Positions 11,073-60,715 of a DNA stretch of 64,000 nt are shown in pieces; the first letter of the stretch is position 1; every line of letters begins with the position of its first letter. Under the pieces are notes generated by a model. The model was not told where the DNA came from, ran no database searches, and was given only the letters and a program-made list of their open reading frames with translations. Source of the DNA: Mya arenaria. Lineage: Eukaryota; Mollusca; Bivalvia; Myida; Myidae. Position numbers and translations under genes: made by a program. The stretch is from positions 35,586,098 to 35,650,097 of the forward strand of contig NC_069138.1 in NCBI RefSeq assembly GCF_026914265.1, written 5' to 3'.

Positions 11073-14000
11073 TCATACAATGACTTTTTTCATAAAAAAA
11101 TGACAAGGTCTGTATTTTCTCCTTACAATAAAATGATAATACAGGATGAGAATGACAAGAGAACAGAGCACATAGAAGAGCACACACATGCCCATATCCA
11201 GGTTGGTGAACCCCCAGCTATACCTTTGCTGCTGGACTGTAAACTCTACTTCCTGTCCAACTTCTTGGTGAAATGCTTTACTGTTGACTGCTACCAGAGC
11301 ATTTATTCTGTCATCTTGTTTGCTTTTAGATTTTTCCTTCTTAATTTTTCTTAAAGATCTTATTTTTTCCAGATCTTTTCTTCTCTGGTGCAATTCCCAC
11401 CAATCTAAATCCCTTTCAGGAGTTACTGCAGGATTAATTTCACTTCCTGTTTGGAATGAGTCATCAGATTCTAAAATAATAGCAGATTTTCCATAAAATT
11501 TCACAAAAAAATCAAAAACATGACTTTTGATGAATACACCTGTATCACTCTGACACTCTGGACATAATGTTTTTGGTGGGAACTGAAGTTTTGGATATTT
11601 TGGGTCTTCTGTGATATCACCCCGGAGACGAGCATTGGCCTTGTTGTGTGCCTGCCAGAGCCACAAGATGGAGCCACTAGGCTTCCGGTCACCGACTGTT
11701 ATGGTTTTGGTCATCCCAAGGAAGTGTTTGACGCAGGTTTCGCAACCGAAGAAATGCTTCATGTAGCCAGCAATTGCTGACAACACATCGATGGGCAAGT
11801 CCTTAGGATCTAGAAACAAAGATGGATATGTATATCAGATTTTTCTATCCAGACCAGAAAGACAGGTAGATATAATTTTTTATAGCCAGAACAAAAACAC
11901 ATTATAGGTTTTACTAACCAATACAAAACCATGTGAGAAAGAAATTATGCCTTTATTTTATTCGTTCCGCTCTGGATAAAAAAAAATCTGACCAGAGGCC
12001 ACTGGAGTAAGCTCGCATCACTGACAATGAAAGGGCAAAAATCAAATTTAAAATCTACAAAATTAATCTATTTAAATAAGTTAGGGCCAGTTGCTTTTTG
12101 GTGTTTGTCAGTAAAAGTAGGAAAAACTAGACAATTGTTTTTGTAATAAAAAAAATGATATAGTCATATTAAAGTCATATGACCTCTGACCTCTAAGTGT
12201 GACAGACATACAGACAGACACTGACACATGTTGCCATATGGCCGAGCGCACGGGCGGGCAGCTGGCAGACAGGCGGAAGTCAAGCTGACAGACAGACAGA
12301 CAACACATCACTTAAATATAAAATCTGTGAACAAGACCATTTCACCAGCTACTCACATTGCCTTGTGTGTGTGAACATGCCGACAGTGAGGGTGTGGAAG
12401 AGAGTCCACAATCCACATGGGTAACCACGGTAACGGGCCTCACTCCCACTACACCCCACCCACCTAACACGGTCTCTCAGGTAATCTGACACTGTCTGCA
12501 AGCGAAGACAAAACAGTTTGTAAATATGAGTACAAGAAAATGGTTAAGGGTGAAAACAAACATATTTTACTTCTTCAAAAAACATCTTAGTAATGTAACT
12601 TAAAAAGGTTTGCATTTAAAACTACCTCTACCCACCTGCAGTTCATCAATCTTGTTGAGCCACTGTTCCCCAGATATCTCTGTTGTCACGGTAGCAAGCC
12701 AGGCGGCAACCTTCTCAAGGTAGGTTTGCAAACATTCCCGACCTGGGAAATACTGAAACAAGAAATATAGGAATCCTTTGTCAATCGCAAATTTTGCAAC
12801 TTCGAATATATGGGAACTTCCCAAGTTTATTCCATTATTTTATTGTATCCTATACAATACAAGTGGGGAAACAACTCGTACATGCTTGCATTGTGAGCAA
12901 CTGTTAGTGTTAACTGAACTCAGGGCTGGTATACGGCACTTTAACTATAGTAATTCTATTCTTTAAAATATAAAACAAGAGGCCAGTTTTTTTATCCTTT
13001 TTTTCAAAGTGCATGTTTTAAATGCGTTTTAAAGCCCCTCAGAGTATACACGGATGGCCCTTCAAATTTACACCATAAATGGGTACTTCAAATCTCATAA
13101 CACAAGTATGATTTTACCTTAATAAGGACATTTATGAATGTTTTGAGGGCTGTAAGTTGTTCCCCCTTGATCTGGCTACAGATGGCGACCTCTTGTCTGA
13201 ATGCGTAGTGAAGCGTGGATTCCAGGTCTGACATATATACAGCTGGTCTGGAATAATGCAAATTGTTAGGTTGTGTGCAATTTTTATGTGATGGTACTGG
13301 AAAAATCGATCTTGCAACAGCATGCGATCTGATAATATCAAGGCATTTAAGACAAAGTTAAAAATCAATTTGAACAAGAGCTGTCACAGAGACAGTGTGT
13401 TGACTACATGTATTTCCCAATTCAAATCTAAGGATTGCGAAGTTTTACTAAAACATACACGGATCACTGTAAAATCAGATTAAATGCAAGACCTTGTCCA
13501 GAATTTCTTAGACAAAAAATAAAGGGGCAAAATTTTTATTATATGCAATATAGAGTTATCACACTTGATTGTTTAAAAGATCGATGCAATACATGAAGTA
13601 GTTCCTGAGTATTTACTGATATGTGCTTACATAAAAAATTTAACCACAATTTATTTGTCAACTAGTATAGGGAAATTATTTGCATTATATGCATGATAGA
13701 GTTATCTGATTTGATTAATTTAGAAGTTTGGATGTTTAAGAGTCCTTGCATAAAGATTTAATGATTATTGATGTATTTGCTGAGATATTGACTTAAATTA
13801 GGTTACAGGAGTACATGCAAAACCTAAAACAAAATTTTAAGTCCAACTAAAAAGATTCAATATTCAATATTCAAGATAGAGTTATCTTACCTATTTTTTT
13901 AAGTAGGTTTGATACTTGGGAACACATGTTTACAATGCAATTGAATTCATGATGTATTTGCTGTTAAAATGACTTAAATTTAGCTACATGCAAAACCTTT

Positions 14001-20000: not shown

Positions 20001-21523
20001 TCTGGACTCTACATAACTCTGTGTTCTCCTCCACAGCACAGTCAACAGCTGCTATCTGCACAATTGGCCACCATGCTGAAAAAACAGTAAGTATGATCTT
20101 ATAAAGCCCAAATGAAACATTTCTTGGTAAAGTCAAATGCTAATATATATATATGATAGTTACTAGGTTACACTCCTCACTGTGACACATAACCTGAAGT
20201 GATGTTGCTTATTTGGAGACTTAAGTTGAACCAAGACAGGGCTGGCATGAATCAACTGCATATAGTTTTCAATACAAGTCTAGTGTTTTTTTTCTGCGTC
20301 ACTCATTTTTTGTTTCTGAAACAGTATATTTTCCCACTACCCAGGTTAAAAATTCCCTTTTAAGATTTTTTTATATTAAATCTGGCCCCATTCTATTTCT
20401 GAAACGGTGTATTTTCCCACTACCCAGGTACCCCTTTAAATATTTTTTTTATATTTTTTTAGAGGAGCATTGACCTCTAAAGCCTATAATATACAGTTAT
20501 TAATGTAACTATGCGGACCTACTGTTTTTTCCCCTTTTTCGACAAGATCACAGATCTACCAGATGTTAACACATGGCACAATTAAAATGTGTAGCGAAAT
20601 TTAATTTACAACCAGAGGCGCATAGCCACAATAATGCGCGTATAGGGCTTTTTTTAACATCTGGATATTCATTTTGTCCCTGAACACAAGTCAACTGATT
20701 CATACCAACATATATTGAAAACATATTCTTTAACTGTAACTCCACAATATTTAACACTGCATTGTTAAATAAAAACACAAAAGTTACACATAAATTATTT
20801 TTAGCCAATACCTTTCTCTTTAAGTGTTTAATGAAACACAAATTTAGATTGATCTGTCAACAAAACTTTTCCATTTTTGAACTATCTAGCAGGTGCCCTT
20901 TATTTTTCCGCTAAATATACTTAGCACTTGGATCTGTCATTCTTGGCTAGGAAAACAACAAGTGGGATATGGACGCGTAGAGTCGCCAAAACAAAAATCG
21001 TCAAAGACTCTGAAGCGGCTTTTTATTTGGACTACTTATCATTATGGACCACAAAAAAATGGTCTAGTATTAGACTTATACTGTGGGCTGTAAAAAGAAA
21101 ACAATTAAGCCAATAAATGCAAAAAAGGTTCAAGACCCTCTTAAAATGTCCGAATTTCGACTTATCCGAAATTTAGTCATGATGGCAAAAACAGTTAATA
21201 ATAAAACAGGAAAATCACGAACGTGAACGACGAAACGTTTGGAAATGAATGATTTCCACCATACCTGTCTTCTCAGCAGCAAATTCCTTCCATTTAGGGG
21301 CAAAATTGATACAATGTCCACACCAACTGTTGTAAAATTCAACCAACCAAACGGACTCAGAACCGACAACATTTTTATCGAAATTCCTGTGATTTAACAC
21401 GTAAACTTTATCGTTGTTATCATAAAGGCCTTTTAGAGTCTCAGACAATGCTAATTTATGAGCAATTTGAACGATTAACACAATATTTAAAACACAATAT
21501 GTCAAACATTTCATCATTGACAT
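11073..21523 (-). CDS. QSOX1: Quiescin sulfhydryl oxidase (FAD-linked thiol oxidase), complete
   Basis: Ten exons (transcript order): 21523-21265, 20075-19975, 19810-19662, 19322-19232, 17890-17754, 15152-14979, 13247-13118, 12752-12636, 12495-12357, 11809-11073; phases all agree and total 2034 nt (677 aa). The protein has a hydrophobic signal segment (residues 1-27), thioredoxin domain 1 with active site WCGHC (CGHC at 68-71), a second thioredoxin-like domain without CxxC, a helical linker, and the Erv/ALR FAD domain with WVGC (401), PC (413), the redox pair CETC (455-458), the FAD-contact stretch [13 protein letters not shown] and the distal CPEC (515-518). A C-terminal membrane span (about 640-661) is followed by a basic tail. 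The family makes disulfides in secretory and matrix proteins using O2. I chose the Met at 21523 because it directly precedes the signal segment; an in-frame Met at 21610 would add 29 residues. The first polyadenylation-like AATAAA beyond the stop is at 10459-10464. QSOX1 versus QSOX2 cannot be decided here. Confidence 0.93.
13373..14403. repeat. Satellite-like element opening with 'aacaagagctgtcacagaga'
   Basis: Lies in the QSOX intron between exons 6 and 7. Diverged units of about 150-170 bp repeat phrases such as 'acttaaat..gcttacatgcaaaacc' and 'gcaatacat.atgtatttgctg'. The same opening and units occur at 33609-34775, so this is a dispersed family with internal tandem structure. No ORF. 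Confidence 0.75.
14578..14660. repeat. Short inverted repeat (MITE-like hairpin)
   Basis: Arms 'cgaggggtaaaagcgaaaag' and 'cttttcgctttcacccctcg' pair with one mismatch, flanking a loop of about 30 nt, inside a QSOX intron. Confidence 0.7.
15183..17192. mobile_element. TIR-bounded element with ~11 internal 146-bp satellite units
   Basis: The left end 'attatgcccccc' and right end 'ggggggcataat' are inverted. Between them are about eleven units of 143-157 bp, each with 'ggtcactgtgaccttgacct', 'gatgacccccaaa', 'aggggtcatctactggtcag' and 'gccatgggtgcaggcattgt'. The right flank has 'gaccgaccgacataccgaca'. It sits in the QSOX intron between exons 5 and 6. The architecture (inverted ends plus tandem core) recalls the bivalve pearl/CvA class, from general knowledge. 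Several short ORFs across it are repeats of one another and not genes. Confidence 0.8.
18054..18127. repeat. Intronic hairpin with 18-bp perfect stem
   Basis: 'tttttgatgactaaaaat' and its exact reverse complement flank a 17-nt loop; outer bases 'agtacca'/'tggtact' extend the pairing. It lies in the QSOX intron between exons 4 and 5. Confidence 0.8.
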
Positions 21524-23024
21524 TTTCCACGTCTCATCTTCCTCTAAATTGGAGAGTACTAGAACCGGGTACGCGTAACTTCCGTTCAGAATCCTACCGT
21601 TTGGCCGCACTAGTTACGTGGTTTAATTACTCGTGCAGTTTTGTTTTATTTATTATTTCTTCTGGTGCATTTATGCCAACCGCAAGTGCAGGAATGGAAA
21701 ATGACACCTTAGAACCAGGTTTTAAGACGAAAGTGATTAACATTGTGAGCCAAAAACTAGGGCCAATTAGTTGGGGGTTCAGTTTGCGACGTCCAATATG
21801 TAATTGACGTTAAATTTTACACAAAAAATGGAAAGTGTAACTACATGTATTCTACATGTAGCATTAAATTGTAACGGAATAACAGCCCTATCAAAATGGT
21901 GCCGTAAACCCTTTATATTTTCATGATACATTTGATTACATAATTACACGGACCTATAAACTTTATAGACCCCCGATAACGAAGCTAAAAAATGGCATAA
22001 CTTTTCACATAGTTTACCGAATTGGACGAAATAAAAAGTTATGAGTTTATCAAAGAGGGTAGTTTAACAATACCTAACGTCTTGTGTACTTAAACCACTA
22101 AGTTAAAATCACCTGAACCCCTTACAATTAGTTCAAATGCAAGGGGAACGGGTAGATCCAACAACGATTCGAAACAAACGATCTAGCTTAGCAACACATT
22201 TAATATCTACAACTCTTACGAAGGAACTCAAAGTTCATACAAAGTAGGCTCTCGGAATGCACTTGGTCACGGACCTCTAAGTGAAGAAACGTGGAAACTA
22301 AAAGGTGTTAACCAATCACGCTGGATAATTAGTCGGAAGCGTCTGTTTTACTCGTGTTCTGGTATGCACGAGGAAATGAGCTGAACAATCTAGTATGATA
22401 CCTCGCGCACGGTCTGCGCCGGAGTGCCTGAGAAAATATCATCATGAATAGTTTTGTTATTGAAATTTTGTTTCAAATGAAAAAAAACCCACATACATAT
22501 GAACAAAATATTTTCTGTTTCAACCTGAGGTGCCACCATTTTAACAGGAATTTTATTATAATTCCGCATACAGTTAAAATGTCTATGTCAGATCAATAAA
22601 ATGTGAGAATGACCCTTTAATGCAAATAGACACAAGCATAAGAGTGGATCCAAAAACAATCTTGAAAGCACTTTTTTCAGCCCTTGAAACCAGTAAAATA
22701 TCGTTTAGTAAAAATGCTTAATAATGTACCAAGTTTTGCTTTGGTTATTCGTATAATCGGGTTAACCTTAAAATCTAGGACCCCGAAACTTCACTGGTAT
22801 GTTGCACTTGGCCAGCAGATGAACCTAATGTTTTTGGGGTTAAATCAGTTTAGGTCAAGGTCATTGTCAACATTTTTCTTTTTAATCCTCTGTACAATCC
22901 GATGCAAATGTTACTGACTAGGTGGTGCGTTATGTTTTACAAACACATCTTGCTCTTATAGATTTGCGCTAGAAATACCACGACAATAGTATTTTCTGTG
23001 AAAATTTATTGGCATGTTTCATCT

Positions 23025-24777: not shown

Positions 24778-25791
24778 ATGAAGATCACAGCTTTCGTTGC
24801 TTTGGCACTTTCCGCCGTCGTCGGAATTGCTCTCGCCGACGAGTTCAACAACTGGGGCAACGACGACTGGGGAAATGATGACGGCTGGAGCATGGGTGGT
24901 GGCTTCGGCGGCATGGGTGGCGGTATTTCAAGTATCGGCGGCGGTCACGGTGGATTCGGCGGCTACGGTGGGGATTCGTACGGTTCTGGTTACGGTGCAG
25001 GATCTGGCTACGGCATGGGCGGTGGCGCATCGTACGGTTCTGGCTATGGTTCCGGATACGGATCTGGCTCAAGCTACGGATACGGAGGTGCATCAATCGG
25101 TATCGGCCAGAGCGCCGCCTTTGTGCCCGTCCCAGCCGCCGGCGGTTCCGGAAGTGGCATTGGATCTTTCCGTGAGTAGATATTATTCAATGGTTGCATT
25201 CTACTATATGGTGTTACACTTTTTATCATTTTATGACAAAAGAACTGAAAAGATTCGTGCCCTGAAGTATTGTTTTTTTATATATTACCTGTAAGTCGAT
25301 ATGTTTTAAAAACGCCGAAGAATGCCCATGATCATCAGGCCCCAATTTCTCGAAACTTCTTAAGCTTAACAGGCTTAAGTAGCTTATTTCAATACGTCAA
25401 AATACATTCTGAAATTGAAATTTTATAAATAAAAAATGGTTAATTGTGATAATCATAAACATAACTCCTATCTTAAGTATAAAAACTCTTAAAGAAGTAA
25501 ACATTATGCAAATTATTGAAAAGCAAAAATAGAGAGCTTAGCTTAATCCTGTTATAAGGGACTTAAGAAGTTTCGAGAAATTGGGGCCAGTAATATTAAT
25601 ACGTTAAATGTCATGTTAACAGCATGTTTATTGGTACATGCATACCTATCACATTCTATTCTTTATATTAATCAAGACAATGAATGTTTCTAGTGCCCCT
25701 GCTTGCGCTGGCTGTGCTGTTCCCTCTGCTTTCCGGCAACTCCGGCACCCAGGACCAGATCATCCTCGTCAACTCCACTCTCGAGGGTTAA
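24778..25791 (+). CDS. Secreted Gly/Tyr/Ser-rich protein, paralogue A (163 aa)
   Basis: Coding exons 24778-25171 and 25694-25791 join in phase 1 (C|TG) to 164 codons. Exon 2 starts at 24771 after 'ttgcag' and the ATG lies 7 nt in. Residues 1-20 form a signal peptide ending ALA|DE. Next come a Trp/Asn/Asp-rich block (about 21-37, two WGNDD), a Gly-rich region with GYGSGYG-type repeats (38-112), SAAFVPVPAAGG, a hydrophobic stretch LPLLALAVLFPLL (132-144) and a tail with a potential N-glycosylation site (NST). I do not recognise the family; a secreted structural role is inferred from composition. If intron 2 is retained, an in-frame TAG (25177-25179) ends the protein at 133 aa. The extension of the open frame into the intron is not coding in the spliced form. 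Closest to E: both begin their mature part DEFNNWGNDDW. Confidence 0.88.
25337..25589. mobile_element. MITE family 1 copy inside gene A intron 2
   Basis: Ends 'ggccccaatttctcgaaact' and 'agtttcgagaaattggggcc' are perfect inverted repeats; 253 bp, non-coding. It is absent from intron 2 of the other four paralogues, so it inserted after gene A separated from them. Confidence 0.92.
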
Positions 25792-26339
25792 ACCTCCTCT
25801 CAGTATGGTATGTAACTTATGTTTATATCATGTAAAAGCTAGAACATAATTTTATTATCTAGTATGACTTTGATGTATTCTTTCTCTACACAATTGATAA
25901 CAAATAACATATGGGGTAACTTGTCATCCCAAATCCATATAATTAGACATCCTCAACCTTATGTACACAATTCGATAAGTGAATAACGTGTGTTTTTGGC
26001 TTGTTTGCACATCAAAGCAATTTCATTGGTCAATAGTGATTATGGGATAAATATCGACAAATAAAGGGTAAGATTCCAATCCGCACCCCCCCCCCCCTCC
26101 AAAAAAAAAGAAAAGAAAAGAAAAAAGAAAAAGATAAGAAAATACACTTTTTTTACACAACTAGCAATTTTATCTGGTCACTAGCCGATTAATTGTCTCT
26201 GCCCGGGTGCGACCGAGAATTAATACAGTCACAACCATCCACTTTAATATAAGCTTAGTCATATACCCGACCAAGCACAGAGAGTTCTTTACGCTAGTTT
26301 TAAACAACTTAATTAATGATTTGGTTTGTTTTATTTCAG

Positions 26340-32141: not shown

Positions 32142-32941
32142 ATGAAGATCACAGCTTTCGTTGCAGTCGCCCTGTCCGCTGTCGTCGGAATTGCTCTCGC
32201 CGACGAGTGGGGAAATGATAACAGCTGGGGCATGGGTGGCGGATACGGCGGCTATGGTGGCGGCATTTCCAGTCTCGGTGGATACGGCGGTTACGGCGGG
32301 GATTCGTACGGTGCCGGATCTGGCTACGGCATGGGCGGTGGCGCATCATACGGTTCTGGCTATGGTTCCGGATACGGATCTGGCTCAAGTTACGGATACG
32401 GAGGCGCTTCATTCGGTATCGGCCAAAGCGCAGCCTTTGTGCCTGTCCCCGCCGCCGGCGGCTCCGGAAGTGGCATTGGATCTTTCCGTGAGTAGATTTA
32501 ATTAAATGTTTGCATCGAACTTATTGGTGTAGGAATTTTGTACTTCAATGACCATCAAACTAAAAAGAGTTCTAGCTTTCGTTTTCGATCATGCCTGAAA
32601 GGCAACCACTCGCATATTTTTCTTAAAAAGTATTAAAATCAGTTTGATTATCTTTTTGAAATATATAAATGAAGTTTGTTGCGTGTGATCTGCTGATGGA
32701 CTTGTTTTAAAATCTACTGAAGGAAACCCTTATTTCAATAAAATTATTAATTTATATGTTATGTTTACAGTATGTTTATTTAATAGTTCACACATATCAA
32801 ATCCTATCATTGAAATTAATGAAGTCTTTGAAAATGTTTCCAGTCCCCCTGTTGCTCCTGTTGGTGCTGTTCCCTCTGCTCTCCGGCAACTCCGGCACCC
32901 AGGACCAGATCATCCTCGTCAACTCTACACTCGAGGGTTAA
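32142..32941 (+). CDS. Secreted Gly/Tyr/Ser-rich protein, paralogue B (147 aa)
   Basis: Coding exons 32142-32487 and 32844-32941 join in phase 1 to 148 codons. The ATG lies 7 nt after the acceptor 'cttgcag'; an upstream in-frame Met at 32112 is in intron 1 and is rejected. A signal peptide (1-20, ALA|DE) precedes a shorter acidic start (DEWGNDNSWGMGGG) and the GYGSGYG region. The hydrophobic C-terminal segment reads LPLLLLVLFPLLSG, more Leu-rich than in the paralogues. The tail is identical to gene A (QDQIILVNSTLEG). The intron 2 donor is again gtgagtag, an in-frame stop if retained. It groups with C and D. The function is unknown; a secreted matrix-type protein is the inference. Confidence 0.87.
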
Positions 32942-38255: not shown

Positions 38256-38951
38256 GTAAGTGAACTATAATGATACTGTTGTTTCAGGGTTTAAATTGTC
38301 GAAATTTAATTAGAAAGAAAATGAAGTTTCATGAAATTCGATCGTAAATTAACCGCAGCTTTCATTAACAAAGATTTGCTCGCTACATTTTGTAACTCGC
38401 AATATTTCATTTTTCTAAGTTAAAATTTTAACTTCTGATGAACGCGTTAAAACCAGACGTATTGTTGCACAAGCATCCTGTCTGCCCGGTTGATTGTATT
38501 AAGTGTATTTTTACCGATTTCGATTTTTTCTCACGGACATTCAATTTTGAATTTTTGAAAATATCAAACACGAATGTGATTTTAAAATCAATCTGAGGTT
38601 CAAAGGTTTCATTTTATTAAAGATGCACTCTAACTTCGAAATAAGATGTTTCGCAATTAATGCAATAGTTTTAATTTACCGAAAAGGATGAAATGGTTCT
38701 TATAAAATATACGGTTATAACCTTAATTAATATTTCCCATAAATGCATTATTCAGTAAGTAGTTATAGGTTTATCACTCCAAATGTATGTTTGTTAGACA
38801 TGTGCATGCATTGATTTTAAATACGAGTGTCACTTAAAGTGTATAGCAAAGTTAAAACTCGCAATCGTTCATGCGCACGATAAACTAATTCCACTTTAGA
38901 AACTATTTGAAAATCATTATAATGTCATGGCAACCCACTTGCAGCTCCACC

Positions 38952-39719
38952 ATGAAGATCACAGCTTTCGTTGCCGTCGCCCTGTCCGCCGTCGTCGGAA
39001 TTGCTCTCGCCGACGAGTGGGGAAATGATGACAGCTGGGGCATGGGTGGCGGATATGGCGGCTATGGTGGCGGAATTTCAAGTATCGGCGGCGGCTACGG
39101 TGGGGATTCGTACGGTTCTGGTTACGGTGCCGGATCTGGCTACGGCATGGGCGGTGGTGCATCGATCGGTTCTGGTTATGGTTCCGGATACGGATCTGGC
39201 TCCAGCTACGGATACGGAGGCGCTTCACTCGGTGTCGGTCACAGCGCCGCCTTTGTGCCTGTCCCTGCCGCCGGCGGCTCCGGAAGTGGCATTGGATCTC
39301 TCCGTGAGTAGATATAATTTAATGACTGCATCTAACTTTTTGGTGTTCCATTTGCGAATTATGTATACACTTTTGTACTGAAAATTTGTTCAAAGCGAAA
39401 AATTGAAACTCATTTTGAAAAGTTAACTTCATAAGAAATTCTAGTTTAGATACTAGTACCAATACATCTTAAAATAAATCAGTTCCATCGATGGTAAACA
39501 TTTGAAATGCCCATTTCTTTATTTGTTATATGGTCGGATTTTGCTAGATTCATATTTATTGATTAATTCATATATATAACATTCTATTCTTTAAATTAAT
39601 CAAGCCTTTGAATGTTTCTAGTGCCCCTGCTTGCGCTGGCTGTGCTGTTCCCTCTGCTCTCCGGCAACTCCGGCACCCAGGACCAGATCATCCTCGTCAA
39701 TTCGACACTCGAGGGATAA
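38952..39719 (+). CDS. Secreted Gly/Tyr/Ser-rich protein, paralogue C (149 aa)
   Basis: Coding exons 38952-39303 and 39622-39719 give 150 codons. The ATG follows 'ttgcagctccacc'; an in-frame Met at 38907 is intronic. A signal peptide (1-20), DEWGNDDSWGMGGG, the Gly/Tyr/Ser repeat region, SAAFVPVPAAGG, then after the phase-1 junction LPLLALAVLFPLLSG and the tail QDQIILVNSTLEG. Exon 2 ends GSL rather than GSF, shared with D. The stop codon TAA (39717-39719) is the first element of the 35-bp repeat that fills intron 3. Exon 3 most simply ends at 39735, before gtatgt at 39736. Its sister is gene D. Intron-2 retention would stop at gtgagTAG (39309-39311). Confidence 0.88.
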
Positions 39720-41763
39720 ACATCCTCTCATCATGGTATGTGATCGCGCTATAAACATCCTCTCATCATGGTTTGTGATCGCGCTATAAATATCCTCTCA
39801 TCATGGTATGTGATCGCGCTATAAATACCCTCTCATCATGGTATGTGATCGCGCTATAAATATCCTCTCATCATGGTATGTGATCGCGCTATAAATATCC
39901 TCTCATCATGGTATGTGATCGCGCTATAAATATCCTCTCATCATGGTATGTGATCGCGCTATAAACACCCTCTCATCATGGTTTGTGATCGCGCTATAAA
40001 TACCCTCTCATCATGGTATGTGATCGCGCTATAAACACCCTCTCATCATGGTTTGTGATCGCGCTATAAATACCCTCTCATCATGGTATGTGATCGCGCT
40101 ATAAACACCCTCTCATCATGGTATGTGATCGCGCTATAAATACCCTCTCATCATGGTATGTGATCGCGCTATAAATATCCTCTCATCATGGTATGTGATC
40201 GCGCTATAAACACCCTCTCATCATGGTATGTGATCGCGCTATAAATACCCTCTCATCATGGTTTGTGATCGCGCTATAAACACCCTCTCATCATGGTATG
40301 TGATCGCGCTATAAACACCCTCTCATCATGGTTTGTGATCGCGCTATAAACACCCTCTCATCATGGTTTGTGATCGCGCTATAAATACCCTCTCATCATG
40401 GTATGTGATCGCGCTATAAACACCCTCTCATCATGGTATGTGATCGCGCTATAAATACCCTCTCATCATGGTATGTGATCGCGCTATAAATATCCTCTCA
40501 TCATGGTATGTGATCGCGCTATAAACACCCTCTCATCATGGTATGTGATCGCGCTATAAATACCCTCTCATCATGGTATGTGATCGCGCTATAAATATCC
40601 TCTCATCATGGTATGTGATCGCGCTATAAATATCCTCTCATCATGGTATGTGATCGCGCTATAAATATCCTCTCATCATGGTATGTGATCGCGCTATAAA
40701 CACCCTCTCATCATGGTATGTGATCGCGCTATAAACATCCTCTCAGCATGGTATGTGATCGCGCTATAAACACCCTCTCATCATGGTATGTGATCGCGCT
40801 ATAAATATCCTCTCATCATGGTATGTGATCGCGCTATAAACATCCTCTCATCATGGTATGTGATCGCGCTATAAATATCCTCTCATCATGGTATGTGATC
40901 GCGCTATAAATATCCTCTCATCATGGTATGTGATCGCGCTATAAATATCCTCTCATCATGGTATGTGATCGCGCTATAAATATCCTCTCATCATATCATG
41001 TGATCGCGCTATAAATATCCTCTCATCATATCATGTGATCGCGCTATAAATATCCTCTCATCATATCATGGTATGTGATCGTGCTATAAACACCCTCTCA
41101 TCATGGTATGTGATCGCGCTATAAAAACCCTCTCATCATGGTATGTGATCGCGCTATAAATACCCTCTCATCATGGTATGTGATCGCGCTATAAACACCC
41201 TCTCATCATGGTATGTGATCGCGCTATAAACACCCTCTCATCATGGTATGTGATCGCGCTATAAATATCCTCTCATCATGGTATGTGATCGCGCTATAAA
41301 TATCCTCTCATCATGGTATGTGATCGCGCTATAAACACCCTCTCATCATGGTATGTGATCGCGCTATAAATATCCTCTCATCATGGTATGTGATCGCGCT
41401 ATAAACACCCTCTCATCATGGTATGTGATCGCGCTATAAATATCCTCTCATCATGGTATGTGATCGCGCTATAAATATCCTCTCATCATGGTATGTGATC
41501 GCGCTATAAATATCCTCTCATCATGGTATGTGATCGCGCTATAAATATCCTCTCATCATGGTATGTGATCGCGCTATAAACACCCTCTCATCATGGTATG
41601 TGATCGCGCTATAAACACCCTCTCATCATGGTATGTGATCGCGCTATAAATATCCTCTCATCATGGTATGTGATCGCGCTATAAATATCCTCTCATCATG
41701 GTATGTGATCGCGCTATAAACACCCTCTCATCATGGTATGTGATCGCGCTATAAATATCCTCA
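39716..41763 (+). repeat. 35-bp minisatellite (~58 copies) amplifying the exon 3 stop codon and 5' splice site of gene C
   Basis: Unit 'ataaacatcctctcatcatg' plus 'gtatgtgatcgcgct'. The first copy spans the real stop codon and the real donor (atcatg|gtatgt). Copies repeat every 35 bp to 41763, with one 40-bp unit near 41050. Variants are ataaatatcc, ataaataccc and ataaacaccc; at least six units read gtttgt instead of gtatgt, all before 40.4 kb, and a few near 41 kb read 'atatcatgtgatc', losing the donor. With the preceding t, most units also spell TATAAA. Confidence 0.97.
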
Positions 41764-42130
41764 TCCTTTGAACCTCTACTAGTCTTAAAATACATGAACA
41801 TTTATGTACAGCAATAATGCCATGAACTTGAGGAAGACATAAAACTTGAACACTTATATATATATATATATTAAAAAAATCACGTTTAAATACTTAAATT
41901 GAAGACATTAAAAGACTTTAACATGTGTATGCAGCAATAATGCCACGTACTTGATGAAGAAATATAACTTTACTTATATATTTAAAAAAATCACGTATAA
42001 ATACTTAAATTAAAGACATTAAATCTCAATGCGTGTGTTGTTAATATTCCTTCTGGTGTTCAGACATTTAATAATAAAATAAAAACATCTGATTTTTCTT
42101 CATATTACATTCGTATGTTTTCTTTTGCAG

Positions 42131-42250
42131 ATATCTGTGATAAAATTATCGATTCCAGCCAGCGTCCAAAAAACCTCGATCCAAGATTTCATCACGCTGG
42201 TCTATTTATTGTTGTTAAGTTATTACAAAATAAAACATAAAAATCGTAGT
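42131..42250 (+). other. Gene C exon 4 (3' UTR) and poly(A) signal
   Basis: Acceptor 'tcttttgcag' precedes 'atatctgtgataaaattatc'. AATAAA is at 42229-42234. Shares with D a deletion of the 'caatggctgttcat' segment present in A, B and E. Confidence 0.82.
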
Positions 42251-42369
42251 TTGTATTGAAATTCGTTCTATGTTTAATCTCGGATCGTATTACAAATACG
42301 TCCTAAGATATTTTTAAAAAAATATGTTTACTTCAGTGTTAAAGCCTAATTAGTTAATTAATTAATATT

Positions 42370-42510: not shown

Positions 42511-43224
42511 GATTTAATTGCAGATTATGGAAGGATACAATATTAACTTATTCTCAATTTCACGAAACATCTTAAGTCCCTTATATCAGTAATAAAGTTA
42601 AGCTCATTATTCTTGTTTTTTTTTATAGTTGTATGTGTAATGGTTGCATTTTTAAGAGATTTTGGACTCTAAACGGTTTCTGATTTTTTTTCTTAATTAA
42701 CTGTTCGTAAGTTATATGAAACTTAAGAAAGTAAATGAGGTTTATGTAATACGCTTATTAAGCTCATTACCATTAAGAACTTAAGTTATATCTTAAGATC
42801 TTTTGTAACACCACACAGATAAAATAATTCTGACATATTATAAATTAAAACAATGGCAACATAAATAATGCTGTAAATTAAAAGGCCATACATGACGTCA
42901 TGGCGTTGGCCTCAGTCTAAAACAGTGAATTTCGCTAATGTGAGGATAAATCTATGAAAAATATCGAAACTTCGTCATCGGCGGCAAACGCTTAAATGGC
43001 AAGCACACAAGCCGGAAACAGTTCAAATATAATAAAACTATTGCACCAGGCATTCTTTCTAAGTACATGTAAACATAACAAACAAAATATGAACTTGCAT
43101 GATTATGAACTGATTATCGCCCTTGGTTAATGGCGGGCACGTGCTTTTTGCTCTAAGCAATTTTTAATTACTTAGTGTACAACAGGATTATTCTAGTTTT
43201 TTTTGTGTGTGGATTTATAACACA

Positions 43225-44499
43225 ATGGCCAGCACTTCTAACAGGTTTTCTCCTTTGTGGCAAAGTGAAAAGAAGCGCAAACGTAGAGGGACAAGTGCTT
43301 CATCATGTCCGGACACGTGTCCGGATATCGGCCAGTATGATGGCCAGCGTGGTCATCATGGTGGACGTGGCACCCCATCTGTATTCCCTGAGACGGCACC
43401 ACCGCGTAGGGAGTTTACTTGTATGTCGTTGGACAACAAACTCGACTGTTTATTTGACCTTATCACTTACACAAGTCCAATTCACAATAAATTGGATAAT
43501 ATTGAGCAATGTTTGTTTCACACAAAGGCTACCACCGATGTCATTGAGAGCCGCCTTCGCCTTTTGGAGTACAAAAGTATAGATAACGAGGCCAGGATGT
43601 TGAAAGGGAACTTAATTTTCAATGGCATTGCCGACCCAAACGGGGCCGAGAACTGTGTTGACACCATCCGTAAGTTCCTTAGTGAACGATTGTTTGAGGA
43701 CGTTTCTAAAATCGGAATAGTGCAGGCGAACAGAATCGGCCGCCGGCGTGGTGGCCCGGGATCTCGCCCAAGAGGTGTGCTTGTAACATTTTCAGACCTC
43801 TGTGATGTCAATTTTATTATGAGCAACGTTGGGAAACTCAAGGGCTCCCCCTACAGTGTCATACGGGACTACCCGCTTGAAATTCGCACTGCCAGGCAGC
43901 AGCTTTGGCCGGATTTTAAGGACGCACAGAAAAGATGTGGTCCTAGAAATGTCCAATTGCTTTTTCCTGCCGCTCTTAAGGTCAATGGAGATGTCGTTCG
44001 TGATTTATTTCCTGGCTGGTATGATATTCTTCGTGGATCGAGGAATGCCAACAATGTTGCTCGTGTCGGTGAGCGTCTGTCCGCCCTCAAGATCGAGTCT
44101 GTGCAGCGACAAGTCAGGTTGGCGACATCGTATGCGTCCCAGCCCACCCCTAAACCGCCGATGGAGTCTTCACGAGTGACATCCGATGTGGACAGCAGTT
44201 CAGGCGACGAAACAGGATGCGAAGTCGACCTTGACCCGCAGGGAGGTACTACTAGACGTGCGATGCCTCGCGACGGCACAAGTCCTGTCCTTACAGCCCC
44301 CGGCTATCTCCTTAATGTCCATCCAGCCATGAACACACAGGGGAGCAAAGTGTCCACGTCGCATGTATCCAACCCCACGGAGACGGGCCTCAAAAGTAAA
44401 GCACCAAGTATCACTTCCGGTTCGAACCCCAGTGGCTCCCCCGATATCGAGTTGGCTCAACCTAACAGTATTCCTCATACGGAGAGCTCCAAGCTCTAG
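43225..44499 (+). CDS. LINE ORF1 protein (424 aa)
   Basis: I start at ATG 43225; a longer reading from GTG 43207 is less likely. The N-terminus is basic (KKRKRRG). A likely coiled-coil stretch lies around residues 75-125 (LDCLFDLITY to LRLLEYKS). It is followed by an RRM-type nucleic-acid binding domain recognisable from NLIFNGIAD, a middle FLSERLFEDVSKIGIVQANRIG and RPRGVLVTFSD, as in L1-type ORF1 proteins. The C-terminus is Ser/Pro/Thr-rich. ORF1 proteins coat LINE RNA in the cytoplasmic RNP. It ends at TAG 44497-44499, with ORF2 following in the same frame. Confidence 0.83.
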   Translation: MASTSNRFSPLWQSEKKRKRRGTSASSCPDTCPDIGQYDGQRGHHGGRGTPSVFPETAPPRREFTCMSLDNKLDCLFDLITYTSPIHNKLDNIEQCLFHTKATTDVIESRLRLLEYKSIDNEARMLKGNLIFNGIADPNGAENCVDTIRKFLSERLFEDVSKIGIVQANRIGRRRGGPGSRPRGVLVTFSDLCDVNFIMSNVGKLKGSPYSVIRDYPLEIRTARQQLWPDFKDAQKRCGPRNVQLLFPAALKVNGDVVRDLFPGWYDILRGSRNANNVARVGERLSALKIESVQRQVRLATSYASQPTPKPPMESSRVTSDVDSSSGDETGCEVDLDPQGGTTRRAMPRDGTSPVLTAPGYLLNVHPAMNTQGSKVSTSHVSNPTETGLKSKAPSITSGSNPSGSPDIELAQPNSIPHTESSKL

Positions 44500-47400
44500 G
44501 GTTGCGCGGGGAGTGTGGCATTCTGTGACGTTTGTGTAACACGCCCGTGCTCATCTTCGAAACTTCATTGTGCCCATATCTCTTCTGAAGAATTCCAATC
44601 TTTGATTAATTCCCATAACGAAACGATGAAAAGTGATTCTCGTAGTATACAGCATCCTGAAAATAGAAATAATAATTTGTCGAATGACCTCTGTTATGAT
44701 GCTTTAGATTTAAATATTGGTTCACTCAACGTGTGTGGCCTAAAGACAAGGCTTAACTATCCAGAATTTGTTGATCTAATTAAGAATTTTAATATTTTCT
44801 GTGTCCAGGAGACTTAAATTGACAATTTTGATATCATAAGTTTGGATAATTATCACTTTTATTCTAAACCAAGGTCACAAAAGTATCTCCGGAAATCCGG
44901 GGGTCTCGGTTTCTTTGTTCACAATAGTTTAAATCATAAAGTGGAAATTATCCAATCTAATAATGAATATGTTCATTGGCTAAAGTTAAGCTTATCAAAT
45001 AACGATTGTATAATAATAGGCAACATCTATGTCCCACCCGATCAGTCTAGATTTTTTAACGAAGACGAATTTTCAGAATTTCAAAATGATGTCTCTGACA
45101 AGTGTATAACATACAAAAAGATTTTCCTGACAGGAGACTGTAATGCATACACATCTAATATGCCCGATTTTGAAGATTTTGATGATTTTCTATCAAAGCA
45201 CTTCAGATTAGACGAAGAAACATTAAGTTCTCTTAATACATCACGAGTTTTAACTGACCTGAATCTGCCATTGTCACGCACTTCACAATGTCGTAAAATT
45301 AACAACCACGGATATAAGTTGTTAAATATATGTAAGTCCAACAATCTTTTTTTATTAAATGGACGTCTTGGTAACGATGCCCACTCTGGATATTACACAT
45401 TTCGTAATAGTTCTGTTATCGATTATAGTATTGCATCATCTCATTTACTCTGTTCGGTGAATGACTTCGAAATAATTGAAGTCGATCCACTTTTTTCGGA
45501 TGGTCATAGCTTACTGTCAACAATTGTCACTATCGATATTTCCAATACACAAACAAATGTAAACATTACCTCTAGCTCGCGAAATCCAACCCGTCATCCT
45601 AAATGGCAGCAGGAAAAACACGAGGAATTCGTGTTCAACCTGAACAGTACCGACAAAGAATCTATTGATAACCGGTTGCGTAATCCCCCACGGTCAAATA
45701 CGCGATTATTGCTCAATACAATTACTGAAGATATTGCTAATCTGTTCAAAGAATCGGCTTTTAAAACATTCTCTCAAAAAATAAGTAATAACACCTATCC
45801 AACAAAGTATACATATAGCACGAAAAGGCCGTGGTTCGGCCTACAGTGCAAGAAGGCGCGGTCGCTATACAATAAAGCACGGAAAGCTTATAATATGAAT
45901 AAATCGACTTCGAACAAAGAAAAATTACATACTGCGAGTAAGCATTATAAAGTTACAATGAATACGTATGTCGCAAAACACAAGCATACAGCAGAATACA
46001 AACTTCGAGAACTCCATTCAAAACATCCTAAAGATTACTGGAACCACTTGAACAAGGTTACCAACGTATCTAAACATGAGTCACCCCCTATAGACGATTT
46101 TTTTCATTATTTCAAAAAAATCAATGACGTCGTTGACGCGAATGATCATATATCGGATAATAACCACCCGAGCTTCTCTAGCGCCGAAACCGATCTGTTA
46201 AATAGGCCAATAGAACATGACGAAATTAACAAAATGATACTGAAAAGTAAGAATGGTAAAACATCGTCGCAGTTTGATAATATTATCAATGAATATTTTA
46301 AAGCCTCGCGCGCCGATATGGTGCCAACCTTCTGTACACTTTTCAATATAATTCTTGAAACTGGTATTCTCCCGGATGCATGGCTAATCGGGACAATAAA
46401 TCCAATTTTTAAAAACAAGGGTTCTCCTACCGACCCCCAAAATTATAGGCCGATTACCATTCTTAGTTGTTTAGGCAAATTATTCACGTCTATCCTTAAT
46501 GAACGCATCAACACATTCCTCTATAATAATAACTTATTAAACGAGAACCAAGCCGGATTTCGCGCAAATTATTCAACCTGCGATCATATTCTTACATTGC
46601 ATTTCCTTATAAGTAATCTAAGGGCCCAGAAAAAGAAACTGTTTTGCTCATTTATTGATTTTTCTGCCGCATTTGACTCTGTCTGGCGAGCTGGCCTGTG
46701 GCATAAGCTAATGCAAACTGGCCTACAAGGTAAAATCCTCACAGTCATAAAAAATATGTATAATGATATAAAATCATGCGTTTCCATCAATGGGCATCTG
46801 TCTCCTATGTTCCCAAGCTTGTGTGGAGTTCGTCAGGGAGAAAATCTTTCTCCGATTTTATTTTCTATTTACCTAAACGATTTAGAAGAATTCCTTAAAA
46901 GAACATGTTCTAGTGTTTCTATAGAAGTAGATGCTAATGAGACAATTATGTACCTACAGTTACTTATTCTCTTGAATGCTGATGACACTGTACTTTTTGC
47001 AGACAATGAACGTGATTTTCAAAAAGGTCTTAACTGTTTCCAAGACTACTGTGTGCAATGGAAACTTAATATTAACCTCTCAAAGACTAAAATAATTGTC
47101 TTTGGTGCCAGAAATCTAAAGAAATTTAACTTTAGCATTGCTAACCAAGCGCTAGAGATAGTCAAGGAATACAAATACCTAGGTGTATATTTCTCGTCCA
47201 CCGGTAGCTTTTTATACTGCCGTAAATATTTAATAAGCCAGGCTAACAAAGCAATGTATGCTCTATTTCTTAGAATTAATAACCTAGACTTGCCTTTGGA
47301 CATACAACTGAAGCTTTTTGATTCTACCATTGTCCCGATTCTAACGTACGGTTGTGAAGTCTGGGGTTTTGAAAACCTTGATCTGTTGGAGCAACTTCAC

Positions 47401-48147
47401 TGTAATTTTTTGCGACGGATTACATATACTAGAAAAAGTACTCCACGGTACATGCTCTACTCGGAACTGGGTAGATACCCCCTTAACACCATAGTTAAAA
47501 CCAGAATGATTAGTTACTGGAGTAAACTCGTTTCATCCCATGACTCGAAAATAAGTTTTTTGATATATAAAGGCATTTTACATAGTAATAATTCAGCCTG
47601 GACCAGTTACATCAAGTCAATACTTGATTCAACGGGTTATTCATACGTTTGGCATAACCAAACAAGAGTACCTGTAAAACATATCAGTAAACTTGTGAAA
47701 TCTAACCTTGTAGACCAATTTCAGCAAAACTGTTTTGAACAATTTAATCTTTCGTCTAAGGGTAAAATGTATTCTCTGTTTAAGTCTGATATTAAATTTG
47801 AGAAGTACCTTAATATTTTACCCAAATCTCTACGTTTTACATTCTTGCATTTCCGCACTAGTAATCATAAATTCCCTATCGAAGTCGGTAGATGGAGACA
47901 GAATGCTGTACCACATGTCAATAGAAAGTGTACGTTTTGTAATCTAAACGATATCGGTGACGAACTGCACTATTTACTTACATGTCCATTTTTTAATCCT
48001 ACCAGAAAACAATACATAAGTAGTCGTTTTTACTCAAGACCTAGTGTCTTACACTTTAGTGAAGTTTTAAATTGTATGAACCCGGATACCTTAAGGAAAA
48101 CAGCAATTTTTGTTAAAATCTTAGTTAATCACTTTAAACGAATCTGA
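44500..48147 (+). pseudogene. LINE ORF2 (endonuclease-RT) with one premature stop
   Basis: One frame runs from the ORF1 stop to TGA at 48145-48147, broken only by TAA at 44815-44817. Endonuclease motifs: LNIGSLNVCGLKTRL and VQET just before the break, GDCNAYTSN (about 45140), SSVIDYSIASSH (about 45410). RT motifs: NYRPITILSCLGKLF (46441), QAGFRANYSTCDH, FIDFSAAFDSVWR (46650), GVRQGENLSPILFSIYLND (46828), then LLNADDTVLFAD (46969-47004), where the usual Tyr of YADD is Asn (46975-46977) though both Asp remain. It ends with a CTFC...H....C zinc-knuckle-like segment (about 47932). The first ATG after ORF1 is at 44626. Premature stop plus Y-to-N suggest this copy is inactive but young. Confidence 0.88.
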
Positions 48148-51838: not shown

Positions 51839-52917
51839 ATGAAGATCACAGCTTTCGTTGCCGTCGCCCTGTCCGCCGTCGTCGGAATTGCTCTCGCCGA
51901 CGAGTGGGGAAATGATGACAGCTGGGGCATGGGTGGCGGATATGGCGGCTATGGTGGCGGAATTTCAAGTATCGGCGGCTATGGCGGGGATTCATACGGT
52001 TCTGGTTACGGTGCAGGATCTGGCTACGGCATCGGCGGCGGCGCATCGTACGGTTCTGGTTATGGTTCCGGATACGGATCTGGCTCCAGTTACGGATACG
52101 GAGGTGCTTCACTCGGTGTCGGCCACAGCGCTGCCTTCGTGCCTGTCCCTGCCGCCGGCGGCTCGGGAAGTGGCATTGGATCTCTCCGTGAGTAGATATA
52201 ATAAAATGTCTGCATCTAACTTTTTGGTGTACTATTTTAGTCGCATATGACTAACAGGGAAAATTCATGTCCTTGAAATGGTAATTGCTTTCGTATTTGG
52301 TCATTTGTTAACTAAGCAAAAATTCTTCTATACATCTCATAAATGCAAATAAGTCATACACTTAATGTACTGTACGTTCGATAACATTATCAATGCTAAA
52401 GTCGAATGTAAATTGCAAAATAAAGCGAGAAAAAAATGAAACGCATTTTGAAAAATTTAATTCCAAACGGAATATCCTGTTTAAGTTTTAGTTCTAGTTT
52501 AAGTCACAAGTACCAATACATCTAAAATAGATCAGTTCCACCGACGCCAGAAATTTAAAATGCCCATTTATGAATTGTTTGTATGGTCGGAATTTGTCAG
52601 ATTTAAATTTGATTTTCGTAATTTGTTACGCGTCATGCATTTTCGTCGCGTAGTTATCTTTTCGATAGCATGCTCATGGACATGTTTTAAAAATGCTAAA
52701 GTAAATCCTTATTTAAACATGTTCTTTCTTTATAAGTCATTTTTACAGCCTGTTAATTGATTAATTCATACATATCATATCTTATTCTTTAAATTAATCA
52801 AGCCATTTAATGTTTCTAGTGCCCCTGCTTGCGCTGGCTGTGCTGTTCCCTCTGCTTTCCGGCAACTCCGGCACCCAGGACCAGATTATCCTCGTCAACT
52901 CGACACTCGAGGGTTAA
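51839..52917 (+). CDS. Secreted Gly/Tyr/Ser-rich protein, paralogue D (148 aa)
   Basis: Coding exons 51839-52187 and 52820-52917 give 149 codons. The ATG lies 7 nt after 'cacttgcag'. A signal peptide (1-20) is followed by DEWGNDDSWGMGGG, Gly/Tyr/Ser repeats with one GYGIGGG variant, SAAFVPVPAAGG, GSL and, across the junction, LPLLALAVLFPLLSG with the NST-containing tail. It differs from C by a few substitutions and one residue of length. The intron 2 donor is gtgagtag, as in all paralogues. Exon 3 ends at 52933 (ga|gtatgt), with no minisatellite behind it. Function unknown, secreted by inference. Confidence 0.88.
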
Positions 52918-59525: not shown

Positions 59526-60212
59526 ATGAAGATCACAGCTTTCGTTGCTTTGGCACTTTCCGCCGTCGTCGGAATTTCTTTCGCCGACGAGTTCAACAAC
59601 TGGGGCAACGACGACTGGGGAAATGATGACGGCTGGAGCATGGGTGGTGGCTTTGGCGGCATGGGTGGCGGTATTTCAAGTATCAGCGGCGGTCACGGTG
59701 GACTTGGCGGCTACGGTGGGGATTCGTACGGTTCTGGTTACGGTGCCGGGTCTGGCTACGGCATGGGCGGTGGTGCTGCATACGGTTCTGGTTACGGTTC
59801 CGGGTCTGGCTACGGCATGGGAGGTGGTGCATCATACGGTTCTGGTTATGGGTCCGGATACGGATCTGACTCAAGCTACGGATACGGTGGCGCTTCATTT
59901 GGTGTTGGGCAGAGCGCTGCCTTCGTGCCCCTCCCCGCAGCCGGAGGCTCCGGAAGTGGCATTGGATCTTTCCGTGAGTAGATATTATTCATTGTTTGCA
60001 TTCTAACTGATTGGTGTTCCATTGTTGTCACTGAATGAAAAACAAACTAAAAAGAATCACATTCTTAAGACTTCTTTATTATTTAAAGTAATATTATCAT
60101 ATTTTTTTTTCCAGTTCCCCTGCTGGGTCTGGCTGTGCTGTTCCCTCTGCTCTCCGGCAACTCCGGCACCCAGGACCAGATCATCCTCGTCAACTCTACA
60201 CTCGAGGGTTAA
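59526..60212 (+). CDS. Secreted Gly/Tyr/Ser-rich protein, paralogue E (181 aa)
   Basis: Coding exons 59526-59973 and 60115-60212 give 182 codons. The ATG follows 'ctttcagctccatc'. The signal peptide resembles that of A but ends ISFA|DE. The mature start DEFNNWGNDDWGNDDGW matches A. The repeat region is the longest of the five, with an internal duplication of about 18 residues (a second GSGYGMGGG plus AYGSGYG unit). The C-terminal exon encodes LPLLGLAVLFPLLSG and the shared tail. Intron 2 is only 141 bp, the shortest in the family, and has the same gtgagtag donor. Exon 3 ends at 60228 before gtatga. Function unknown; secreted by inference. Confidence 0.88.
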
Positions 60213-60578
60213 ACTCCCTCGCATCATGGTATGACACCTTTGTTAATTCCATCAAATTGCGCTATAAATTCCCTACTTAATGGCTTGGACATGAATATGT
60301 ACAGCTGACTTTCCATTCCATGTTATTGATGAGGAAGCATAACATGTACACTTCAAGATTTTTTATTTGCAGCATAACTACACATTTTTGTAAATAACTC
60401 GATAAAAAGAGAGTAAAATAAACAAAGAAGAAATATAAAAACATTTACTTTTTAATACTTAAATCGAAGACGTCCGCTCTGAAAATGTTCTACCATATAT
60501 TGCTTATATTCATCTTACATTTTATTACAAAATACTACTTATTTTCTTACATTTCGCACTCGTGTTTATTTATTGCAG

Positions 60579-60715
60579 ATATCTGTGATATTAATATCCA
60601 GTCCAGCCAGCTTCCAAAGAAATCTCGATCCACGGTGTTATCACACTCAACAATGGCTGTTCATCTATTTATTGTTGTTAAATTATTACAAAATAAAACA
60701 TAAAAATCTTAACTC
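60579..60715 (+). other. Gene E exon 4 (3' UTR) and poly(A) signal
   Basis: Acceptor 'tttattgcag' precedes 'atatctgtgatattaatatc'. AATAAA is at 60692-60697 after the conserved 'ctatttattgttgttaaatt'. Confidence 0.82.

Follow-up and report, generated by a model that had tools for sequence, protein, structure and literature searches.

In gene C of Mya arenaria, the end of exon 3, with its stop codon and 5' splice site, is the first unit of a minisatellite of 58 full tandem units and a 13-bp partial unit (39716-41763, + strand). This donor-bearing array is confirmed in the window analysed (the whole stretch of 64,000 nucleotides, C17:35586098-35650097), and its counts come from one assembled haplotype. 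We consider it probable that the minisatellite is private to this locus and arose from the gene's own exon-3/intron-3 boundary, and that the first donor dominates splicing, while the donors that follow yield a small share of transcripts with stepwise longer 3' untranslated regions (UTRs).

Gene C, its paralogues and the native end of exon 3

The window holds five paralogous genes (A at 24778, B at 32142, C at 38952, D at 51839 and E at 59526), and the features of gene C and its array are as follows.

38256, + strand: start of GTAAGT, the likely donor of exon 1, which would open an intron in the 5' UTR (from paralogue comparison)
38945..39303, + strand: exon 2, with the ATG at 38952, encoding the signal peptide and Gly-rich part
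39622..39735, + strand: exon 3 as ended by donor 1, 114 nt (placed in part by paralogue alignment)
39717..39719, + strand: native TAA stop after the protein C-terminus NSTLEG, an ending shared by P0001
39720..39735, + strand: 16 nt of 3' UTR from the stop to donor 1
39736..39741, + strand: native donor 1, GTATGT
39736..42130, + strand: intron 3 as begun by donor 1, 2395 nt
40976..41045, + strand: units 37 and 38, donor lost, with CATATCATGT in place of CATGGTATGT
41743..41766, + strand: native intron-3 segment ATCGCGCTATAAATATCCTCATCC at the right edge of the array, homologous to intron 3 of B, D and E
41751..41763: 13-bp partial unit at the right end of the array
42131..42260, + strand: exon 4, 3' UTR only, with AATAAA at 42229 and an approximate 3' end

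Over its full length of 149 residues, the gene C protein is 100% identical to LOC128223431 of Mya arenaria; the public entry, of 159 aa, begins 10 codons before the gene C ATG, a start that, to judge from the sequences, is likely an annotation error. A profile search returned 11 proteins, the named members coming from Ruditapes, Mercenaria, Mactra and Dreissena, and, of eight further sequences that were non-Mya or unnamed (P0003-P0010), six share with gene C an end just past the NST motif, the exceptions being the unnamed P0009 and P0010. With a signal peptide, a Gly/Tyr/Ser-rich body and a C-terminal DQI(I/L)L(L/V/I)NST motif followed by the stop, gene C is a member of the heterodont bivalve Gly-rich secreted protein family (LOC128223431, Ruditapes LOC132729478 and their kin). 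Pfam held no family for the protein, and a literature search found no paper naming LOC128223431 along with Mya arenaria. Between C and D, dN is 0.009 and dS 0.145 over 148 codons (dN/dS ~0.06); by this comparison gene C is under constraint, and the same ratio disfavours reading it as a pseudogene.

The promoter and exon-1 regions of C and D match at 90%, and the exon-1 donor site is CAGTAAGT at the corresponding place in B, C, D and E and AGTAAG in A. By paralogue comparison, the 10 extra codons of the LOC128223431 record (window 38922-38951) appear to lie in the terminal part of intron 1. A LINE-like element (window 43168-48147, + strand) sits between genes C and D and has two frames, one of 443 aa without a Pfam match and one of 1109 aa with RVT_1 (E 1.7e-37). 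On the - strand, window 11076-11834 and 21218-21613 hold frames with Erv1/Alr and thioredoxin domains, a domain order that we take to be that of a quiescin sulfhydryl oxidase gene.

The first-pass annotation had described the first unit of the array as the functional end of exon 3, with TAA, 16 nt of UTR and a GTATGT donor, and both the gene C sequence and the paralogue alignment bear this out. A stop, 16 nt and then a GTATG donor are found in all five window paralogues when the homologous donor of A is taken at 25808; the automated pick in A was a GT 5 nt earlier, and the homologous donor was used instead. The exon-3 end of A (25803-25813) holds two overlapping GT choices, GTATGG and GTATGT, 5 nt apart. 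Two more exon-3 copies, at C17:35667748-35671000, have their stop 12 nt before GTGAGT, and the array is present in gene C only among the seven full exon-3 copies on the chromosome. These two extra copies, oppositely oriented, lie 18-21 kb beyond the end of the window; another chromosome, C13, has two shorter matches to exon 3 (C13:52430210 and C13:53121814).

A public model, P0002, which resembles gene E (window 60210-60600) without one repeat block, is spliced at GAGG/GTTAAA ahead of the stop and reads into exon 4. We disfavour exon 4 as coding sequence because U1 pairing at this site is poor in A and E (-3.5), the required GT is missing from gene C, and a 1-nt insertion puts exon 4 of E in a different frame from that of the other paralogues.

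The array and the origin of its unit

Cut unit by unit, the array has 57 units of 35 bp and one, unit 39, of 40 bp, and TRF reports a single array at 39716-41762 (period 35, 58.3 copies, 95% matches), so that the earlier figure of about 58 copies holds. A 25-mer unit core with at most three mismatches has 57 matches in the window against 0.00 expected (100 shuffles). Across the species' own genome (1,216,080,610 bases), in a scan that skips very common words, a 29-base unit pattern with at most three mismatches has 58 forward matches, all within the array, no reverse matches, and none for a reversed-pattern control. The scan thus places the unit at the array only, and a foreign or dispersed repeat is ruled out. 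Just 3' of the array, intron 3 also holds a direct repeat of 116-128 bp at 79% identity (window 41785-42023).

Dozens of identical donors had been proposed, and the tally upholds their number and most of their identity: 50 of 58 units carry GTATGT, but six (units 2, 8, 10, 16, 18 and 19) carry GTTTGT and two have no donor. The sequence preceding donor 1 is GAGGGATAAAC and that preceding the later donors is GCGCTATAAA. The whole array contains a single AG, at 40745; being nearly free of AG, it supplies donors and not acceptors. Folding of four units is unremarkable (-28.1 versus -24.0 +/- 3.9 in 200 mononucleotide shuffles).

It is doubtful that the copy number or the uniformity of the units is an assembly artefact, because a 2-kb array falls within the span of single long reads and because the unit variants are mixed along the array with no higher-order period among unit types (autocorrelation P 0.51), which argues against simple misassembly. 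According to the available part of the assembly report, PacBio FALCON-Unzip, gap filling and short-read polishing were used, steps that can alter or homogenise arrays (PMC10663159), and polishing could have made the units look more alike.

The 35-bp unit joins a piece of intron 3 to the end of exon 3 and its donor, both of them native sequence. Its last part, the 18-mer ATCGCGCTATAAATATCC, is a native intron sequence: when both strands of the window were compared with it, leaving aside the array, the three best matches came from intron 3 of B (16/18), of E (15/18) and of D (14/18), and the next best from three places elsewhere at 13/18. The last unit and its flank, aligned to D and B, start matching in both at unit position 28 and continue into the flank. 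With gene E, BLAST of the last unit and flank leaves two GCGCTATAAAT stretches unpaired, which a shorter query and MAFFT do pair; this account of the origin has a gap at gene A, where no clear copy of the segment is seen. The segment lies 64 nt past the donor in B, 27 nt in E and 112 nt in D but 7 nt in C, which has thus lost the intron sequence that stood in between. At the level of sequence, the comparison shows a deletion, or an equivalent rearrangement, in the C lineage that moved GCGCTATAAATATCCTCATCC to a position 7 nt downstream of the donor.

Two imperfect direct repeats, ATAAACATCCTCTCATC at the end of the exon and ATAAATATCCTCATCC within the intron, thereby came to lie 35 bp from each other, and this 35-bp stretch was amplified, presumably by slippage or unequal exchange. 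The pair of repeats explains the birth of the array, its edges and its TATAAA motifs, and the model accounts for GATAAA in the first unit and TATAAA in later ones. Through the paralogues, the birth of a minisatellite from a pair of short native repeats can be read with unusual clarity. The first-pass annotation had taken TATAAA as a motif gained by most units; it belongs instead to the native intron segment, a segment that paralogues B, D and E share.

TATAAA is a variant poly(A) hexamer with activity, and the array contains 58 copies of it. Read from the sequence, each unit places TATAAA ahead of a GT-rich stretch, a layout in which the array might provide intronic poly(A) sites in series, restrained by the U1 site, and cleavage there would spare the protein. 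We regard this as highly improbable, as neither AATAAA nor ATTAAA occurs within the array.

Donor choice and the fate of the transcript

As had been claimed, one acceptor lies past the array; it is a strong one, with 42131 the first base of exon 4. Exon 3 would measure 114 nt with donor 1, 289 nt with donor 6 and 2114 nt with the last donor. The distance from stop to junction is 16, 51, 86 and 121 nt for donors 1 to 4 and 2016 nt for the last donor, in agreement with the earlier arithmetic that put the stop more than 55 nt upstream from the third donor on. Under an EJC-type criterion for nonsense-mediated decay (NMD; stop >50-55 nt upstream), donor 1 falls below the limit and donors from the third onwards, at 86 nt or more, would lie above it if used. 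Among the literature titles and abstract openings searched, nothing was found that settles whether clam NMD obeys the 50-55 nt junction rule.

The donors themselves are ordinary. By U1 pairing (kcal/mol), the unit donor scores -6.1 and the paralogue donors -6.9, -6.9, -5.1 and -4.2, with GTTTGT weaker at -5.3; of the 3503 other GTs in the window, 4.4% equal the unit donor by U1 pairing energy and 21% by plain consensus matches. Nor is there a sign of selection on the array for donors: seven columns vary among the 57 units of 35 bp, three of the six in the donor hexamer versus four of 29 elsewhere, so that hexamer columns are no less free to change than the others. Units with GTTTGT are concentrated in the first third of the array (units 2-19, P ~5e-4), a pattern noticed after the fact that local spread explains as well as selection does. 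By chance, the seven long arrays in the window and 15 donors, an assumed figure, would give 0.057 first-unit hits and 1.39 overlaps; since chance overlaps are expected, placement of an array on a donor proves nothing in itself.

In our preferred reading, exon 3 would be recognised by exon definition, directing most transcripts to donor 1 with its 114-nt exon and removing the array along with intron 3. A minority of transcripts would use donor 2, 3 or later, each step adding 35 nt to the 3' UTR, and from donor 3 onwards, with the stop at least 86 nt from the junction, these minor mRNAs would decay if clam NMD senses downstream junctions. The predicted protein would be identical across all donor choices. 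Two human datasets guide this expectation. In the available text on the ABCA7 variable number tandem repeat (VNTR), retention of one unit was 2 +/- 1% and unaffected by VNTR length, whereas skipping of exon 19 rose 3.2- to 4.1-fold with VNTR length and cycloheximide raised frameshifted (PTC) isoforms (PMC5954066). In the available text of a survey of near-equal donors, long flanking introns favoured the upstream donor and shorter exons; this upstream preference is modest, at 60% over all near-equal donor pairs, and downstream donors win in short-intron contexts and, when no strength filter is applied, in all four architecture classes (PMC9225289). Together, the ABCA7 retention data and the donor survey lead us to expect that donor 1 dominates and that the others form a thin ladder; these closest human cases suggest that the array is mostly spliced out with little effect.

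The 55 later competitors could together win against donor 1, and we caution that, with intron 2 at 318 nt and intron 3 at ~395 nt from the last donor, intron definition may apply. Under intron definition late donors would dominate and the 3' UTR of most mRNAs would include array sequence, up to 2 kb of it, which we think improbable. The intron made by the last donor would resemble those of the paralogues (350-537 nt), and the downstream preferences in the human survey point the same way; against this, exon 3 would grow to its full 2114 nt, and the same survey favours shorter exons.

A further proposal was that the array acts as a length-dependent rheostat, in which copy number sets the success of late donors and hence the share of mRNA sent to NMD. 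Junction distances beyond 55 nt from donor 3 on, unit donors about as good as paralogue donors, and the length-dependent skipping and cycloheximide response at ABCA7 are consistent with it. On the other side, unit retention at ABCA7 was independent of VNTR length, and the donor sequence in the clam array is conserved no better than background; on this analysis, which yielded nothing in favour of a length-dependent effect, we judge the rheostat unlikely and the less likely reading. A related version, in which array length and the weakened nearest competitors (GTTTGT, units 2-19) on a ladder past the stop jointly set the decayed share of mRNA, has in our view a low probability; if it were true, the minisatellite would tune dosage and leave the protein untouched. 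Compared with these alternatives, dominance of donor 1 with a thin ladder is the reading we retain.

Relation to known donor-spanning repeats

The Mya reference was annotated with RNA-seq from six tissues, according to the part of its description available (PMC10663159). If gene C is expressed, it would provide a natural competition among ~50 near-identical donors for one strong acceptor with an unchanged protein, each donor choice giving a known stop-to-junction distance. Its cDNA could then tell exon definition from acceptor proximity among equal mollusc donors and could reveal whether clam NMD senses junctions.

Minisatellites that span a donor are already known from human ABCA7 and CBS, and the clam array, whose unit holds the canonical donor and which starts at the exon end, is a further case. 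The VNTR of ABCA7 intron 18 has a 25-bp unit in 12 to ~427 copies; its first GT is the canonical exon-18 donor and the second donor is used at a low level, as far as the available text describes (PMC5954066). The two arrays are alike in that the tandem unit contains the canonical donor of the exon. They differ in that the ABCA7 unit has no stop and adjoins an internal coding exon, where unit retention shifts the frame, whereas in the clam unit the stop comes ahead of the donor and the change is confined to the 3' UTR; as clam exon 4 is terminal, exon skipping of the ABCA7 type has no direct counterpart. The human CBS 31-bp VNTR, c.1444_1467+7(16_21), present in 16 to 21 copies, also has a unit that spans an exon/intron boundary, to judge from its nomenclature in the available text, with copies that repeat the exon end and donor; unlike the clam array, it lies at a coding exon and has fewer copies (PMC2630376). 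In UBC, the accessible portion of the report describes tandem dual-specific splice sites, amplified within a tandem repeat as in the clam and used stochastically, but the UBC AGGT sites serve as donor and acceptor and the clam unit has no AG (PMC10809524). With its one AG at 40745, dual-specific splice sites and recursive splicing are ruled out for the clam array. What is new here is the unit as a fusion of the exon-3 end and donor with an intron-3 segment, and the clam array differs from the known cases in three ways: its unit includes a stop codon, it occupies the last intron, and the protein stays the same.
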